From: Streptomyces indicus
GTDB lineage: Bacteria > Actinomycetota > Actinomycetes > Streptomycetales > Streptomycetaceae
Reading direction: 5' to 3'
Length of the DNA: 64,000 bases
Assembly: GCF_900100315.1 (NCBI RefSeq)
Contig: NZ_FNFF01000011.1
Coordinates: 1 to 64,000 of the forward strand
The notes below the pieces were generated by a model, which worked only from the letters and a program-made list of their open reading frames with translations, made no database searches and was not told where the DNA came from. Below, in pieces: positions 47,318-58,644 of this stretch (positions are counted from its first letter, which is position 1; every line of letters starts with the position of its first letter). Position numbers and translations under genes: made by a program.

Positions 47318-48211
47318 ATGATGCAGCGCTTCACACGCCTCACCCTCGCCGCGGCCCTCGCGCTCGCGACCCTCGCCACCCTGCCGCCCGCGGCCACCGC
47401 CGAGCCCGGCCCCCCGCCCGTCCCCGCACCCCAGCAGGAGCTGGTGCCGGGCGTGCCGCTCACCCCGTACCACCGCTGGCAGCTCGACACCCCCGACCAG
47501 GGCATGCCGCCGCTCGTGTACACGCCGAGCGCCGAGGAGGACGCGGTCGAGCCGATGGAGCCGCCCGCCGAGCTCGACGCGCTCATCGAGTACGTGCCGC
47601 CGGGCGAGGTCGTACGCGGCCTCGCGGCCCCGCGGTGCAGCAAGCGGACCGGTCCCCACCAGCGCCAGGTCGAGAAGTGGCTGCGGCTCAAGGCGGACGG
47701 CAGGCAGTCGGCGCGGGACTGCGCGGCGATCCGGAAGTTCCAGCGAGCGCAGGGGATCCGGCCGGCCATCGGGTTCGCCGGGCCGGTGACCTGGGCCCGG
47801 ATGCGCCGGCTCACCGCCGTACGCGATCCGAAGGTGCTGAGGCAGTGCCCGCCGCGTCCGTACCGCATCGCCTGTGTGGACCTCGGTCGGCAGCTGATGT
47901 GGGTGCAGAAGGGCGGCAAGGCGATCTTCGGGCCGGTCCCCGTGCGCAGCGGCAAGCGGTCCACACCGACCCGGACGGGCTGGCACAAGGTCTACTGGAA
48001 GCACAAGAACCACTTCTCGACGCTCTTCCGCACGCCCATGCCGTACAGCCAGTTCTTCAGCGGCGGCCAGGCCTTCCACGCGATCTACGGCAGCGTGTAC
48101 AACCCGCCGGGCTCCCCGGGCTGCGTGAACCTCTCCTACCGGGACGCCAAGCGGCTGTGGACCAAGCTCTACAAGGGCGACCGGGTGTACGTGTGGGGGC
48201 GCAGGCCGTGA
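47318..48211 (+). CDS. Secreted L,D-transpeptidase with peptidoglycan-binding domain
   Basis: The 297-residue protein has a signal peptide (MMQRFTRLTLAAALALATLA, cut near ATAEP), a Pro-rich linker, a peptidoglycan-binding domain (CAAIRKFQRAQGIRPAIGFA, with Cys nearby) and a YkuD L,D-transpeptidase domain with His254 (QAFHAIYGS) and catalytic Cys269 (SPGCVNLSYRDAKRLW). Such enzymes make 3-3 cross-links in peptidoglycan, abundant in Streptomyces, or attach lipoproteins. The start has two ATG codons in a row; the second (47321) is better spaced from GAAGGG. Confidence 0.93.
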   Translation: MMQRFTRLTLAAALALATLATLPPAATAEPGPPPVPAPQQELVPGVPLTPYHRWQLDTPDQGMPPLVYTPSAEEDAVEPMEPPAELDALIEYVPPGEVVRGLAAPRCSKRTGPHQRQVEKWLRLKADGRQSARDCAAIRKFQRAQGIRPAIGFAGPVTWARMRRLTAVRDPKVLRQCPPRPYRIACVDLGRQLMWVQKGGKAIFGPVPVRSGKRSTPTRTGWHKVYWKHKNHFSTLFRTPMPYSQFFSGGQAFHAIYGSVYNPPGSPGCVNLSYRDAKRLWTKLYKGDRVYVWGRRP

Positions 48212-49611: not shown

Positions 49612-50847
49612 GTGAGTGACACAGGCACCCAGATCGCGCAGGCCGCCCAGGCCGCCGAGACCGCAGCGGGCGGCTGGCGCAGGGCGGGCCTCGCGGGCGC
49701 CGCGATAGGCGTGATCGCCGCGGGCGCGGCGGCCGGTGTCGCGGTCGAGCGGCTCACGGTCGGACGCGGCATGCGCAAGAAGGCCCGCCTCGCACTCGAC
49801 TCCGCCGGACCTTACGGCTCGCTGCGCGGCCAGCCCGGCAAGGCCGTCGCGGAGGACGGCACGGCCCTCTATTACGAGGTGGACGAGCCCGAACCGGACA
49901 GCTCCCAGGCCCGCCGCAGGCGCCGCCTCTTCGGCCGCAAGGCCCCCGCGCCCGTCACCGTGGTCTTCTCGCACGGCTACTGCCTCGGCCAGGACTCCTG
50001 GCACTTCCAGCGTGCGGCCCTGCGCGGCGTGGTGCGCACCGTCTACTGGGACCAGCGCAGCCACGGCCGCTCGGAGCGGGGCAAGGCGCAGACGGAGCGC
50101 CAGGAGCCGGTCACCATCGACCAGTTGGGCCGCGACCTGAAGGCCGTCATCGACGCGGCCGCGCCCGAGGGCCCGGTCGTCCTCGTCGGCCACTCCATGG
50201 GCGGCATGACCGTCATGGCGCTGGCCGACCAGTTCCCCGAGCTCGTCCGCGAGCGCGTCGTGGGCGCCGCCTTCGTCGGCACATCCTCGGGCCGGCTCGG
50301 CGAGGTCAACTACGGGCTCCCGGTCGCGGGCATGAACGCCGTGCGCCGGGTCCTGCCCGGCGTCCTCAAGGCGCTCGGCTCGCGCGTCGAGCTGGTCGAG
50401 CGGGCCCGGGGCGCCACCGCCGACCTGTTCGCGGGCATCATCAAGCGCTACTCGTTCGCCTCCCGCGAGGTGGACCCCGCGGTCGCCCGCTTCGCCGAGC
50501 GGCTGATCGAGTCCACCCCGATCGACGTGGTCGCGGAGTTCTACCCGGCCTTCGGCGACCACGACAAGCAGGCGGCGCTGCGGCACTTCGCGGACGTACC
50601 CGTCCTCGTGCTCGCCGGCGACAAGGACCTGGTGACGCCCAGCGAGCACAGCGAGGCCATCGCGGACGAGCTGCCCGAGGCGGAGCTGGTGATCGTGCCC
50701 GACGCCGGCCACCTCGTGATGCTGGAGCACCCCGAGCTGGTCACCGACCGTCTCGCCGACCTTCTGGCGCGTGCGGGCGTGGCCGCGCCGGCCGCTACCG
50801 TGGTTGCCCATGGAAGCACCGCGCCCCACGTCGACTCCCGCAAGTAG
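49612..50847 (+). CDS. Alpha/beta hydrolase, probably membrane anchored
   Basis: The 411-residue protein has an amino-terminal hydrophobic segment (AGLAGAAIGVIAAGAAAGVA), then an alpha/beta hydrolase domain with the oxyanion HGYCLGQDSWHFQ, the nucleophile elbow VVLVGHSMGGMTV, the acid in LAGDKDLVTPSEHSEAI and the His in PDAGHLVMLEHPE. The triad Ser-Asp-His is complete. It may act on lipid or aromatic esters near the membrane; substrate unknown. GTG start with CGCAGGAGGC nearby. The end overlaps tsaE by 38 bases. The alr-hydrolase-tsaE order is common in actinomycetes. Confidence 0.9.
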   Translation: MSDTGTQIAQAAQAAETAAGGWRRAGLAGAAIGVIAAGAAAGVAVERLTVGRGMRKKARLALDSAGPYGSLRGQPGKAVAEDGTALYYEVDEPEPDSSQARRRRRLFGRKAPAPVTVVFSHGYCLGQDSWHFQRAALRGVVRTVYWDQRSHGRSERGKAQTERQEPVTIDQLGRDLKAVIDAAAPEGPVVLVGHSMGGMTVMALADQFPELVRERVVGAAFVGTSSGRLGEVNYGLPVAGMNAVRRVLPGVLKALGSRVELVERARGATADLFAGIIKRYSFASREVDPAVARFAERLIESTPIDVVAEFYPAFGDHDKQAALRHFADVPVLVLAGDKDLVTPSEHSEAIADELPEAELVIVPDAGHLVMLEHPELVTDRLADLLARAGVAAPAATVVAHGSTAPHVDSRK

Positions 50848-51325
50848 CGTCCGGTTCACCGTCAGCTCGCCCGCCGAGATGGGTGAGCTGGGCCGCCGCC
50901 TGGCCAAGCTCCTGCGCGCCGGCGACCTCGTCATGCTCAACGGCGAGCTGGGGGCCGGCAAGACGACCCTGACCCGGGGCCTGGGCGAGGGTCTCGGCGT
51001 GCGTGGAGCCGTCACCTCGCCGACCTTCGTCATCGCCCGCGTCCATCCCTCGCTCGGCGACGGGCCGCCCCTGGTCCACGTGGACGCGTACCGCCTCGGC
51101 GGCGGGCTCGACGAGATGGAGGACCTCGACCTCGACGTCTCGCTGCCCGAGTCCGTGATCGTCGTGGAGTGGGGCGAGGGCAAGGTCGAAGAGCTCACCG
51201 ACGACCGGCTGCACGTGGTGATCCACCGCGAAGAAGGCGACGCCGCCTCGGACGTACGGACGATCACGCTGACCGGGCTCGGGGAGCGCTGGGCGGGCGT
51301 GGACCTGGAGGCCCTGGCCGCCTGA
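50810..51325 (+). CDS. tsaE: tRNA t6A biosynthesis ATPase TsaE
   Basis: TsaE is the ATPase that turns over the TsaBD complex for the tRNA modification N6-threonylcarbamoyladenosine at position 37. The 171-residue protein has the P-loop GELGAGKTTLTRGLGEGL, the switch TSPTFVIARVH, the HVDAYRLGG segment and the VEWGEGKVEELTDDRL end. The ATG at 50810 lies inside the hydrolase gene; TACCGT is 8 bases before it, so it may also be leaderless. tsaB and tsaD, its partners, are about 1 kb downstream. Confidence 0.95.
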   Translation: MEAPRPTSTPASSVRFTVSSPAEMGELGRRLAKLLRAGDLVMLNGELGAGKTTLTRGLGEGLGVRGAVTSPTFVIARVHPSLGDGPPLVHVDAYRLGGGLDEMEDLDLDVSLPESVIVVEWGEGKVEELTDDRLHVVIHREEGDAASDVRTITLTGLGERWAGVDLEALAA

Positions 51326-51476: not shown

Positions 51477-51644
51477 ATGTCGGCCCCGGACCATGAGACG
51501 ACCCGCCCGCCGCAGCCGTCGATGAGCGACCTGCTCGCGTCCTGCGCCGCGGCCACCGCGGTCTCCACGCCGCCGAGCCTCGCCGAGCGCGTACGGGGCG
51601 AGGACGGGCACAAGGAAGCGGCGCCGCACCGCGACGCCGCCTGA
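51477..51644 (+). CDS. Small protein of unknown function (55 aa)
   Basis: The frame begins MSAPDHETTRPPQPSMSDLL and ends PHRDAA. It has a strong ribosome site GGGAGG 5-6 bases before the ATG, codon use like its neighbours, and a hairpin terminator just after the stop. One Cys, acidic and His residues at the end, no membrane segment. Small proteins with the same LLASCAAATAVSTPP core seem to be present in streptomycetes, but I cannot name the family. The palindrome upstream suggests that it is regulated. Confidence 0.65.
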   Translation: MSAPDHETTRPPQPSMSDLLASCAAATAVSTPPSLAERVRGEDGHKEAAPHRDAA

Positions 51645-51653
51645 CCACACTTC

Positions 51654-51682
51654 CGGCACCTCGTCCACGCGACGAGGTGCCG
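51654..51682. terminator. Hairpin between the small gene and its convergent neighbour
   Basis: CGGCACCTCGTC (51654-51665) and GACGAGGTGCCG (51671-51682), perfect 12-pair stem, loop CACGC; could serve both strands. No T-run. Confidence 0.7.
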
Positions 51683-51693
51683 CGCCTGAACGA

Positions 51694-51737
51694 GGTGTCG
51701 CACCTACTCGCCTGAACCGCGGTGTCGCGCCTACTCG
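51694..51737 (+). repeat. Short repeat copied from a gene end
   Basis: GGTGTCGCACCTACTCG (51694-51710) and GGTGTCGCGCCTACTCG (51721-51737) match in 16 of 17 positions. The second holds the last codons and stop of the minus-strand gene at 51731. Confidence 0.75.
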
Positions 51738-52279
51738 ACGACGACGACCTTCGTCCCCACCGTTGCGAACTCCCACATCGCGCGCCCGTCCTCGCGCGTC
51801 TCGCGGATACCGCCGGTCTTGCGGGAGGTGTCCGGCTCGGGCGTCGAGCCGTCCTGCGCCGCGCTGAACCCGATCGTCACGCCCTCGTTCGAGGCGAAGC
51901 GCACGACGTGCTCGATCGGCACCCCGTCCGAGCCCGTGATCGCCCCCGAGCGGGTGGACACCGCGTACTCGCCGGGCAGCGGGTCCACCGTGCTCGGCAT
52001 GACCTTGAAGGTGCGCTGGACCTTGTCGCCCTGGCCGACCAGCCACACGCGGTCGGTGCCCAGCTGGTACACGACCCGCTCGCCCTGGCCGGACAGCGCC
52101 GGCAGCGCACCGGGCTTGGTCTTGCCGCCGGGCTTCTTCGAGGCGCTCGACGAGGAGGGCGTCGTGGGCTTGCCGAGGGTCTCCGGCGCGGATCCTGAGG
52201 CCTGGACGGCGAGGAAGCCGACGACCGCGAGGGCCGCCGCGGTGAGCCCGGCCACGTATCCGGCGCTGCTGCGTGCCAC
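51731..52279 (-). CDS. Membrane-anchored L,D-transpeptidase-like protein without the catalytic cysteine
   Basis: The 182-residue protein starts VARSSAGYVAGLTAAALAVV (GTG) with a signal-anchor helix, then a Ser/Lys/Pro linker and a domain that follows the YkuD pattern: VYQLGTDRVWLVGQGDKVQR, PIEHVVRFAS with His124, and TGGIRETREDGRAMWEFATV at residues 155-174. In active enzymes this last motif is S-H-G-C-I-R; here the Cys place is Gly157. It should therefore not catalyse transpeptidation. The GTG start is preceded by GGAGGT, a strong site. Family relation is inferred from the motif order. Confidence 0.75.
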   Translation of the reverse strand: MARSSAGYVAGLTAAALAVVGFLAVQASGSAPETLGKPTTPSSSSASKKPGGKTKPGALPALSGQGERVVYQLGTDRVWLVGQGDKVQRTFKVMPSTVDPLPGEYAVSTRSGAITGSDGVPIEHVVRFASNEGVTIGFSAAQDGSTPEPDTSRKTGGIRETREDGRAMWEFATVGTKVVVVE

Positions 52280-52395
52280 CGAGCTACCTCCACACCCTTC
52301 GTACACACGACTGGGTCCGTCAAATACGTCCGGAGAGCGACGTTAGCAGCCGGGCCCTGTACGGCCGGGGCGCCGTGCCTTGCCCCTGCACGCCG

Positions 52396-52401
52396 TAGGC
52401 T
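52396..52401 (+). promoter_or_regulatory. -10 hexamer for leaderless tsaB
   Basis: TAGGCT is 6 bases before the tsaB GTG; no ribosome site is present. Confidence 0.55.
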
Positions 52402-52407
52402 GTTCGC

Positions 52408-53061
52408 GTGCTCTTGCTCGCTCTGGATACCGCCACCCCCGCCGTCACGGCCGCCCTGCACGACGGCCGGACCGTCCTGGCCGAGTCATCGAGCGTCGAC
52501 GCGCGCAGACACGGTGAGCTGCTGCTCCCGGCCGTCGACCGGGTGCTCGCCGACGCGGGCGTGAAGCTGGACGCCGTCACCGCGATCGTGGTGGGCACCG
52601 GCCCCGGCCCGTACACCGGACTGCGCGTCGGCCTGATGACGGCCATGACCTTCGGCTCGGCCCTCGGCGTGCCCGTGCACGGCCTGTGCACGCTCGACGG
52701 ACTCGCGTACGCCTCCGGCCTCGAAGGGGACTTCGTCGTCGCGACGGACGCCCGCCGCAAGGAGGTCTACTGGGCCCGCTACAGCGGCAGCCGTACGCGC
52801 GTCACCGACCCGGCCGTGGACCGCCCCGCCGAGATCGCCGAGCAGGTCGCGGGTCTGCCCGCGGTCGGCGCCGGCGCGGGTCTGTACCCGGAGACGTTCC
52901 CCGACGCGCACGGGCCCGAGCACGTCAGCGCCGGTGCGCTGGCCTCGCTCGCGGCCGAGAAGCTCGCGGCCGGCGAGGAGCTGACCGAGCCGCGGCCGCT
53001 GTACCTGCGCCGCCCGGACGCCCAGGTGCCCAAGAACTACAAGGTGGTCACCCCGAAGTGA
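52408..53061 (+). CDS. tsaB: tRNA t6A biosynthesis protein TsaB
   Basis: TsaB is the scaffold partner of TsaD in making N6-threonylcarbamoyladenosine on tRNA. The 217-residue ASKHA-fold protein has MLLLALDTATPAVTAALHDG, RRHGELLLPAVDRVL, VGTGPGPYTGLRVGL and the TDARRKEVYWARY segment. The GTG start comes right after TAGGCT and 6 bases, so the RNA is probably leaderless. Its stop overlaps the start of rimI (GTGA), and tsaD follows: a t6A operon. Confidence 0.96.
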   Translation: MLLLALDTATPAVTAALHDGRTVLAESSSVDARRHGELLLPAVDRVLADAGVKLDAVTAIVVGTGPGPYTGLRVGLMTAMTFGSALGVPVHGLCTLDGLAYASGLEGDFVVATDARRKEVYWARYSGSRTRVTDPAVDRPAEIAEQVAGLPAVGAGAGLYPETFPDAHGPEHVSAGALASLAAEKLAAGEELTEPRPLYLRRPDAQVPKNYKVVTPK

Positions 53062-56929: not shown

Positions 56930-57823
56930 ATGCAACTAGTACGACAAAATCACAAAAACCGGGTGCGGCTGGCCGCCTCCGGAGTGGCCGTACTCACCGC
57001 CACCGCCCTCGTCGCCACCGCCTGCTCCGGCGGCGGTTCCGGCGAGGCCGTCAAGCCCGCCCCCGGCCAGCAGGCCGCCGACCTCGCCAAGCAGCGGGCC
57101 GCCGCACACGCCGCGAAGGTGGCGGCGGTCAAGCGCTGGGGCCTGGCCAAGATGCCGCTCACCGCGCCCGAGCCGCCGGCGAAGAAGACGGAGCCCGTGA
57201 CCCGCAAGGGCTTCGAGGTGTCCGGCCAGAAGGACCTGCCGCACGTCTTCACCACGATCCCGACCAGGGACAAGGTCGTCTTCCTGACGATCGACGACGG
57301 GGCCGAGAAGGACCCGCAGTTCCTGAAGATGATGAGCGACCTGAAGATCCCGTACACCGCGTTCCTCAGCGACTACCTGGTCAAGGAGGACTACGGCTAC
57401 TTCAAGAAGATGCAGGACCGCGGCGTGGTCCTGAACAACCACACGCTCAACCACCGCTACATGCCGGGCCTCAGCTTCGACCAGCAGAAGCGGGAGATCT
57501 GCGGCATGCAGGACGTGATCGAGAAGCGCTACGGCAAGCGCCCCGAGCTCTTCCGGCCGCCGTACGGCAACTACAACCGCGACACCCTCAAGGCCGCCAA
57601 GCAGTGCGGCATCAAGGCCGTGCCGCTGTGGAACGCCGAGGTCTTCGTGGACCGCATGGACTACCGCGAGTGGGACCGCGACATCCACCCCGGCGACATC
57701 ATCCTCACGCACTTCCGCGGCAAGGGTGACTGGAAGGGCTCGATGCCCGACATGATCCGGAAGTTCATGAAGGTCGTCACCGACAAGGGGTACGCGGTGG
57801 CACGCCTGGAGGACTACCTGTGA
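56930..57823 (+). CDS. Secreted polysaccharide deacetylase (CE4), first of a pair
   Basis: The 297-residue protein has a signal peptide with a weak lipobox (LVATAC), a Lys/Ala-rich spacer and a NodB domain: motif 1 VVFLTIDDGAEKD, motif 2 NNHTLNHRYMPG, motif 3 FRPPYGNYNRDTLKAA and motif 5 ILTHFRGKGDW. The Asp-His-His metal set looks complete, so it may remove acetyl groups from peptidoglycan or another N-acetyl sugar polymer. The TGA overlaps the GTG of the second deacetylase gene, so the two form an operon. Confidence 0.9.
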   Translation: MQLVRQNHKNRVRLAASGVAVLTATALVATACSGGGSGEAVKPAPGQQAADLAKQRAAAHAAKVAAVKRWGLAKMPLTAPEPPAKKTEPVTRKGFEVSGQKDLPHVFTTIPTRDKVVFLTIDDGAEKDPQFLKMMSDLKIPYTAFLSDYLVKEDYGYFKKMQDRGVVLNNHTLNHRYMPGLSFDQQKREICGMQDVIEKRYGKRPELFRPPYGNYNRDTLKAAKQCGIKAVPLWNAEVFVDRMDYREWDRDIHPGDIILTHFRGKGDWKGSMPDMIRKFMKVVTDKGYAVARLEDYL

Positions 57824-58644
57824 GGGCCGCGCACCGGCTGCTGGCCGGCGTGCTCGCGGCCGGTGCGCTCGCTCTCGGGGCGAGCGGCTGCGCGCAGTCC
57901 GTGGACCCGATCGAACGGCTGGGGCGCAAGGCCGCGCAGAAGGTCGAGGAGCGCCGCGTCAGCCACGCCACGGCCCGCCGCTGGGGCCTGGACAAGCCGC
58001 TCGCGCCGGCACCGGAGCCGCCGCCGCGTACCGCGGTCAAGGGCGCGGGACCGGGGCTTCCGCCGGTGCTCGACCGCGTACCGACCAAGGACAAGGTCGT
58101 CTTCCTGACCTTCGACGACGGGGCCGAGCGCGACCCGCGCTTCGTGCGGATGGTGCGCGAACTGCGGCTGCCGGTCTCGATGTTCCTCACCGACAGCGTG
58201 GCCGGACCGGGCTACGCCCACTTCGGCGAGCTGGCCTCGGTGGGCGCCACCATCCAGAACCACACCCTCGACCACCCGTATCTGCCGGGGCTTCCGTACG
58301 CCGGGCAGCGCTGGGAGATCTGCGGCCAGCAGGACAAGCTCAAGGACCGCTTCGGCCAGCGCCCACGCCTCTTCCGTCCGCCGTACGGCGAGTACAACGC
58401 GGACACCCTGCGGGCCGCGGCGGACTGCGGGATCTCGGCGGTGGTGCTGTGGCGGGCGTCGATGCAGATCAACGATCTGCGGTACGCCGAGGGCGCGAAG
58501 CTGCGGCCCGGCGACATCGTGCTCGCCCACTTCCGCGGGCCCGACGAGCTGCACGGGGCGTCCCTGACGGAGATGACCACGCGGATGCTGCGGAAGATCC
58601 AGGAGCAGGGGTTCACGGTGGCGCGGTTGGAGGACTACATCTGA
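57820..58644 (+). CDS. Secreted polysaccharide deacetylase (CE4), second of a pair
   Basis: The 274-residue protein is a close paralogue of the upstream one. It starts MRAAHRLLAGVLAAGALALG with lipobox ASGC at about residue 24, so it should be a lipoprotein. The NodB motifs are VVFLTFDDGAERD, IQNHTLDHPYLPG, LFRPPYGEYNADTLRAA and IVLAHFRGPDEL. GTG start overlaps the first gene by 4 bases (GTGA). The shared ALARLEDYI-type end (VARLEDYI here, VARLEDYL upstream) shows that a tandem duplication made the pair. Confidence 0.92.
   Translation: MRAAHRLLAGVLAAGALALGASGCAQSVDPIERLGRKAAQKVEERRVSHATARRWGLDKPLAPAPEPPPRTAVKGAGPGLPPVLDRVPTKDKVVFLTFDDGAERDPRFVRMVRELRLPVSMFLTDSVAGPGYAHFGELASVGATIQNHTLDHPYLPGLPYAGQRWEICGQQDKLKDRFGQRPRLFRPPYGEYNADTLRAAADCGISAVVLWRASMQINDLRYAEGAKLRPGDIVLAHFRGPDELHGASLTEMTTRMLRKIQEQGFTVARLEDYI

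Follow-up and report, generated by a model that had tools for sequence, protein, structure and literature searches.

The window analysed here, a 64,000-nucleotide stretch of Streptomyces indicus DNA, contains a gene whose product follows the motif order of a YkuD-type L,D-transpeptidase (LDT), yet an earlier note placed a glycine, Gly157, at the position of the catalytic cysteine. Does the gene encode an enzyme that uses another residue, a protein in decay, or a member of the fold kept for a purpose other than catalysis and, in the last case, what does the protein do?

Predicted fold and active-site region

The open reading frame is a real gene. Its GTG start at 52279, common to many relatives, opens 182 codons and has a GGAGGT six bases to its 5' side (complement of 52286-52291), and the GC content at codon positions 1, 2 and 3 is 0.665, 0.566 and 0.962 (GC3 0.962). 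The N-terminus of the protein reaches a Kyte-Doolittle maximum of 2.03 (19-residue window; hydropathy alone), and values of at least 1.6 were obtained for 53 of 55 family members. The features of the locus are collected in Table 1.

Table 1. Features of the locus and second copies elsewhere; positions are those of the window unless preceded by a locus handle.
Feature	Position	Strand	Basis or remark
Separate Cys-bearing L,D-transpeptidase	47318..48211	+	YkuD domain E 1.2e-14; 3.5 kb from putative pseudoenzyme gene
tsaE, conserved neighbour	50771..51325	+	Pfam PF02367 E 3.2e-33; synteny
55-aa ORF, convergent with putative pseudoenzyme gene, between it and tsaE	51477..51644	+	tblastn matches in several relatives' loci
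Perfect hairpin, 12-bp stem, 5-nt loop, between convergent genes	51654..51682	.	putative terminator
Coding sequence of putative YkuD-fold pseudoenzyme	51731..52279	-	182 aa, GTG start
Predicted YkuD-fold domain, residues 60-182	51734..52102	-	AlphaFold2 model; Foldseek and VIA matches to LDTs
T155-G156-G157-I158-R159, degenerate x-G-C-I-R motif	51803..51817	-	Gly157 codon 51809-51811; Arg159 retained
Ser139 codon, position of catalytic His	51863..51865	-	alignment with Cys-bearing relatives
N-terminal hydrophobic segment, residues 9-27	52199..52255	-	putative signal anchor or signal peptide
Divergent intergenic region, 128 bp, common to putative pseudoenzyme and tsaB-like genes	52280..52407	.	
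tsaB-like gene, divergent conserved neighbour	52408..53061	+	Pfam PF00814 E 2.3e-30; synteny
Second Gly-type copy	L012:4983-5549	+	beside radical-SAM gene
Second Gly-type copy	L050:1983-2534	+	beside radical-SAM gene
Second Gly-type copy	L054:1998-2579	-	beside radical-SAM gene

Neither Pfam nor NCBIfam gives a match to the window protein at E values up to 10, which makes a pseudoenzyme of this kind easily missed. The protein falls below the curated PF03734 (YkuD) cut-off, and its gene is not among the 14 PF03734 matches above cut-off in its own genome; with E values up to 1 allowed, a YkuD match appears for nine of the 55 family members, the strongest at 1.7e-7. In sequence searches of the PDB, no YkuD entry was matched by the window protein or by profile A2, built from the 55 Gly-type family sequences of the order (Streptomycetales). 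YkuD chains were retrieved with profile A3, built from 26 of the 34 aligned Cys-bearing sequences from outside the order, all 26 of which match PF03734.

An AlphaFold2 model of the window protein has pLDDT block means of 88-98 from residue 61 on and values below 50 for residues 1-46. Among the 50 Foldseek matches listed for this model, 48 are titled LDT or YkuD (best E 2.9e-6), the remaining two being 1zat, a 'peptidoglycan binding protein' of E. faecium, and 4xxt, a fused cell-wall protein. VIA-align matched the model to 5bmq with Z 13.6 (rmsd 3.3 over 124 residues) and to 4lpq with Z 13.5 (rmsd 2.2 over 112 residues); for comparison, a modelled Cys-bearing relative (L086, mean pLDDT 91.7) scored Z 16.2 against 4xvo. 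As modelled, the window protein shares the YkuD fold and is somewhat more divergent than the Cys-bearing relative, since its Z is 13.6 against 16.2. The YkuD-type domain claimed in the earlier note is thus predicted with confidence by all three methods, and the model matches LDTs rather than the unrelated fold against which the note had set its claim. Next to known YkuD LDTs (PF03734; 5bmq, 4lpq, LdtMt1 and LdtMt2), the window protein is alike in predicted fold (VIA Z 11.2-13.6), in the G-x-[IV]-R segment and in the C-terminal helix and strand, but differs in lacking the catalytic Cys and His and any Pfam match.

Residues 154-159 of the window protein read K-T-G-G-I-R. In an hhalign comparison of A2 with the Cys-bearing set A3 (probability 99.9, E 5e-34), G156-G157-I158-R159 falls on G-C-I-R, and Gly157 therefore occupies the position of the catalytic Cys, as had been claimed. 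Two further changes go beyond the earlier note: the catalytic His is also missing, IGFH having become IGFS with Ser139 in its place, and the loop between both sites is shortened. In the aligned sequences, His and Cys are each found in 0/55 members inside the order versus 34/34 outside it. The spacing between the His and Cys positions has a median of 18 (range 17-22) in the 55 inside sequences versus 26 (24-28) in the 34 outside ones, a loop about eight residues shorter in the order's copies than in close Cys-bearing relatives.

Within the order the reading was extended to 103 distinct domain sequences, drawn from 111 loci and each covering about the last 126 residues of the match. The Cys position is Gly in 102 of them and Asp in one, which answers the question of whether the Gly is conserved in orthologues; the His position is Ser in 89, Asp in nine, Glu in four and Ala in one, and the Thr155 position is Thr in 88, Leu in eight, Ser in three (including the SRD motif), Ala in two, and Val and Arg in one each. 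A Cys elsewhere in the domain, the other outcome that the earlier note had set against its reading, occurs in 0/103, so an active enzyme with an alternative domain Cys is ruled out. The sole Cys in the 55-sequence set lies inside the N-terminal hydrophobic segment of one member (L025).

The Arg two residues past the Cys position has been retained throughout, in 55/55 aligned sequences and 103/103 distinct sequences inside the order, and in 33/34 outside; it may be the Arg that lies in the active-site groove of many LDTs (PMC10653827). Nine columns are at least 85% fixed inside the order and less than 30% outside (R77, P95, V98, G116, D118, G119, P149, T155 and G157). Five positions fixed in active relatives are altered inside it (T at 121, G at 131, P at 142, G at 150 and A at 165), and the cleft may therefore no longer accommodate a stem peptide. 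DpaA (LdtF), the YkuD-type amidase of E. coli, is comparable as a YkuD protein with a role beyond transpeptidation; it retains the YkuD catalytic Cys, a feature absent from the window protein, which has Gly157. DpaA is a working hydrolase without the Arg present in many LDTs (PMC10653827, PMC12729407), whereas the window protein has lost the nucleophile and kept an Arg after its position. In LDTBcn, replacement of the Cys by Ala abolished activity (PMC10864386).

Distribution, selection and ancestry

Homologues of the window protein were found in 39 of 41 genomes, its own genome counted, and each of the five relatives that carry a name belongs to Streptomyces. Within the order, profile A2 detected the family in 244 of the 245 genomes sampled, and in 242/242 of those with completeness of at least 90% and contamination of at most 5%; the sole missing genome is 81% complete. 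Internal stop codons were absent among the matches listed. The possibility that the order also has an active sister copy was rejected as far as the matches were read: profile A3 matched 244/245 genomes, and the matches read (32 loci among the matches listed, two pairs being the same place) were of the Gly type throughout, bar the SRDVR of genome G025.

Pfam bears out the t6A neighbourhood described earlier, with TsaE, a TsaD-family protein in the TsaB position, a GNAT acetyltransferase and TsaD, and likewise the YkuD domain of the LDT gene 3.5 kb away. The arrangement is widely kept: tsaB adjoins the first copy in 63 of 65 loci of the order, G025 included and some being the same place counted twice, and tsaE is seen in the other two.

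Eleven of the 25 genomes compared within the genus carry a second Gly-type copy. The second-copy rows (n = 13) form a clade of their own with support of 100/95 and are 44-53% identical to the window protein. The second copy adjoins a long radical-SAM gene, which we take to be fbiC, in three of four loci examined (L012, L050 and L054; not L045), and no tsa gene was detected in its 14 loci.

Domain dN/dS ranged from 0.13 to 0.52 in 15 close pairs (simple Nei-Gojobori counts at high GC), the N-terminal part being looser (0 to 0.85), and 13 positions are invariant among the 55 family sequences. As far as sequence comparison can tell, the family is a conserved pseudoenzyme of the YkuD/LDT fold and not a gene in decay, because the loop is shorter, the Arg retained, new residues fixed and domain dN/dS low at the values given. 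Homology to an actinobacterial LDT subfamily, loss in every copy read and purifying selection jointly make 'conserved pseudoenzyme' almost certainly the right description.

Outside the order, both His and Cys are kept in 54/54 domains read (L080-L093, L097-L116, L174, L175, L178-L194 and L199), of which 34 are covered by the alignment counts and 20 were read by eye. A class-wide sample contributed matches in 53 of 197 genomes. Of these genomes 37 lie outside the order, and they gave 38 matches; 36 of the matches are YkuD domains (34 aligned), and L176 and L177 match in the N-terminal part only. In a phylum-wide sample 25 of 246 genomes matched, and all 18 matches read among the 22 outside the order have His and Cys. 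In two of the 54 (L193, L194) the His belongs to a GYH or ALH motif. These relatives, from other families of the phylum, are homologous to the order's copies by profile and have the His and G-C motif that the latter lack; the simplest reading of this homology is that the order's copies descend from an LDT subfamily that keeps Cys and His.

A maximum-likelihood tree calculated with the catalytic block left out (101 columns, rooted on three hand-picked rows, with modest support and a program warning of meeting long branches) has a single branch (87/70) that separates the 55 Gly-type rows from the others, and it requires one change. The deepest row on the Gly side, L062 of genome G025, has a long branch and the motif SRDVR instead of TGG, and two separate losses are therefore conceivable. 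L062 (1995-2558, minus strand; motif SRDVRQ) alone represents its family in the sample of the order, and elsewhere in its sequence it still resembles the Cys-bearing set (VSG, FAPVGT). It is possibly an intermediate or a separate loss.

Gene order bears on where the change took place. In two outside regions (L126, L127) the Cys-bearing copy sits in a block of the form alr - hydrolase - ... - LDT - rimI, with tsaB, tsaD and tsaE undetected within 12 kb. An LDT was probably disarmed in place, since these copies occupy a similar gene block, an order that supports descent in place. Counting against this picture, the other 14 of 16 outside copies do not lie in such a block: alr, rimI and tsa genes went undetected in those regions, including L125 of the same outside family.

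Possible role and rival explanations

Taken as a whole, the locus is best explained, and we hold this with good confidence, by a conserved YkuD-fold pseudoenzyme that is very probably exported and may serve as a non-catalytic binding module. The protein probably acts by binding rather than catalysis, because the gene lost both catalytic residues yet was kept, mostly in the same genomic place, across relatives; a binding module is favoured since the fold, the Arg and the newly fixed residues were kept while the chemistry is gone. On the simplest reading an LDT ancestor lost both catalytic residues, acquired a shorter loop and fixed new residues; the gene is retained under purifying selection, nearly always beside tsaB. 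The N-terminal segment, judged by its sequence, would very probably export, and perhaps tether, the domain outside the membrane. There, the old cleft with its retained Arg might bind a peptidoglycan stem or a cell-wall protein without reacting, and this binding might influence cross-linking by Cys-bearing LDTs or PBPs, a tentative proposal modelled on inactive LytM proteins controlling hydrolases. LytM proteins have a metallopeptidase fold unrelated to YkuD, and the likeness to the EnvC type concerns mode of action, namely a non-catalytic cell-wall enzyme fold kept as a regulator. Catalytically inactive LytM factors regulate cell-wall hydrolases (PMC8416486). A wider scenario, conceivable though rather doubtful, has the ancestral LDT disarmed at its original locus at the root of the order; it would have become a non-catalytic cell-wall sensor or scaffold, present throughout the lineage, and been duplicated later.

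The rival that survives best makes the protein the dedicated partner of one LDT or PBP, acting on it as activator, inhibitor or chaperone and not itself binding peptidoglycan. Potential clients exist among the 14 YkuD matches of its own genome, the newly fixed residues could make a protein interface, and inactive relatives of cell-wall enzymes can act in this way (PMC8416486, in the part available); yet there is no conserved adjacent candidate, and we regard this as a real possibility that falls short of probable. The earlier note had proposed regulation of the LDT 3.5 kb away, an idea now weakened: hhalign places that LDT as distant kin (probability 0.6), and of the relatives' loci three have sufficient flank, where it was found in L009 and undetected in L010 and L013, with the tsa genes kept. 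Neither kinship nor gene order in these three loci supports this LDT as a conserved partner, and it was rejected as one.

An enzyme with an alternative nucleophile (e.g. Ser139 or Thr155) that hydrolyses peptidoglycan stems is improbable. The predicted fold is intact, Ser occupies the His position in 89/103 sequences and Thr stands two before the Cys position in 88/103, but Ser139 is replaced by D, E or A in 14/103 and Thr155 in 15/103, in a site that has no His and a shortened loop. A role in t6A synthesis or for TsaB, suggested by the place between tsaE and tsaB and by the near-constant tsaB neighbour, is more improbable still: the gene is divergent from tsaB, hydropathy gives it an N-terminus of the exported type, the two outside Cys-bearing copies lie beside rimI with tsaB, tsaD and tsaE undetected in 12 kb, and a tsa gene was detected in none of the 14 second-copy loci. 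Position is all that ties the gene to t6A synthesis. Least probable of all is a decaying gene whose catalysis was lost under relaxed selection and whose protein is functionless, a reading to which the altered positions of the active-site region besides Cys and His and the low identity (36-44%) between the window protein and homologues from other families of the order could be fitted, but which sits badly with a family present in every near-complete genome of the order, stop-free among the matches listed, with the domain dN/dS, invariant positions and newly fixed residues described above, and of the Gly type in its duplicated copy as well.

The preferred reading, a binding pseudoenzyme, would have a bearing on cell-wall control. 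Cell-wall hydrolases are known to be steered by inactive relatives; searches of open-licence literature brought up no example with the LDT fold, nor any YkuD pseudoenzyme or earlier account of such a family with a traceable ancestor and locus. In the available parts of these sources, a 2025 LDT review (PMC12729407) does not mention Streptomyces or an inactive family, and PMC10864386 and PMC6107284 do not describe a YkuD pseudoenzyme. If the protein is functional, the Streptomyces order would keep an inactive sibling beside its Cys-bearing LDTs in nearly every sampled genome, and a major group of antibiotic producers would offer a concrete, testable candidate for the control of 3-3 cross-linking.

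The S. coelicolor counterpart and minor features of the locus

In S. coelicolor, SCO4747, SCO4750 and SCO4752 are given as TsaE, TsaB and TsaD (PMC4932002, in the part available); because of this gene order, and from gene order alone, the orthologue is probably SCO4749. PMC3765725 places SCO4749 in a convergent-transcript pair affected when RNase III is lost. This agrees with the 55-aa ORF that converges on the gene in the window and for which no Pfam family was found. Three YkuD LDTs of S. coelicolor (sco0736, sco3194 and sco4934) are under sigma-E, and SCO474 or SCO475 tags are absent from the main text of that source, as available (PMC6767563).

Two minor observations concern the surrounding DNA. 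Three imperfect 20-nt direct repeats at 51673-51737 extend into the 3' end of the putative pseudoenzyme ORF. Further along, a polysaccharide deacetylase gene lies at 57820-58644 on the plus strand (PF01522, E 4.9e-29), and the ORF just 5' of it has a similar-looking C-terminal part in translation, so that the two may form a tandem pair.
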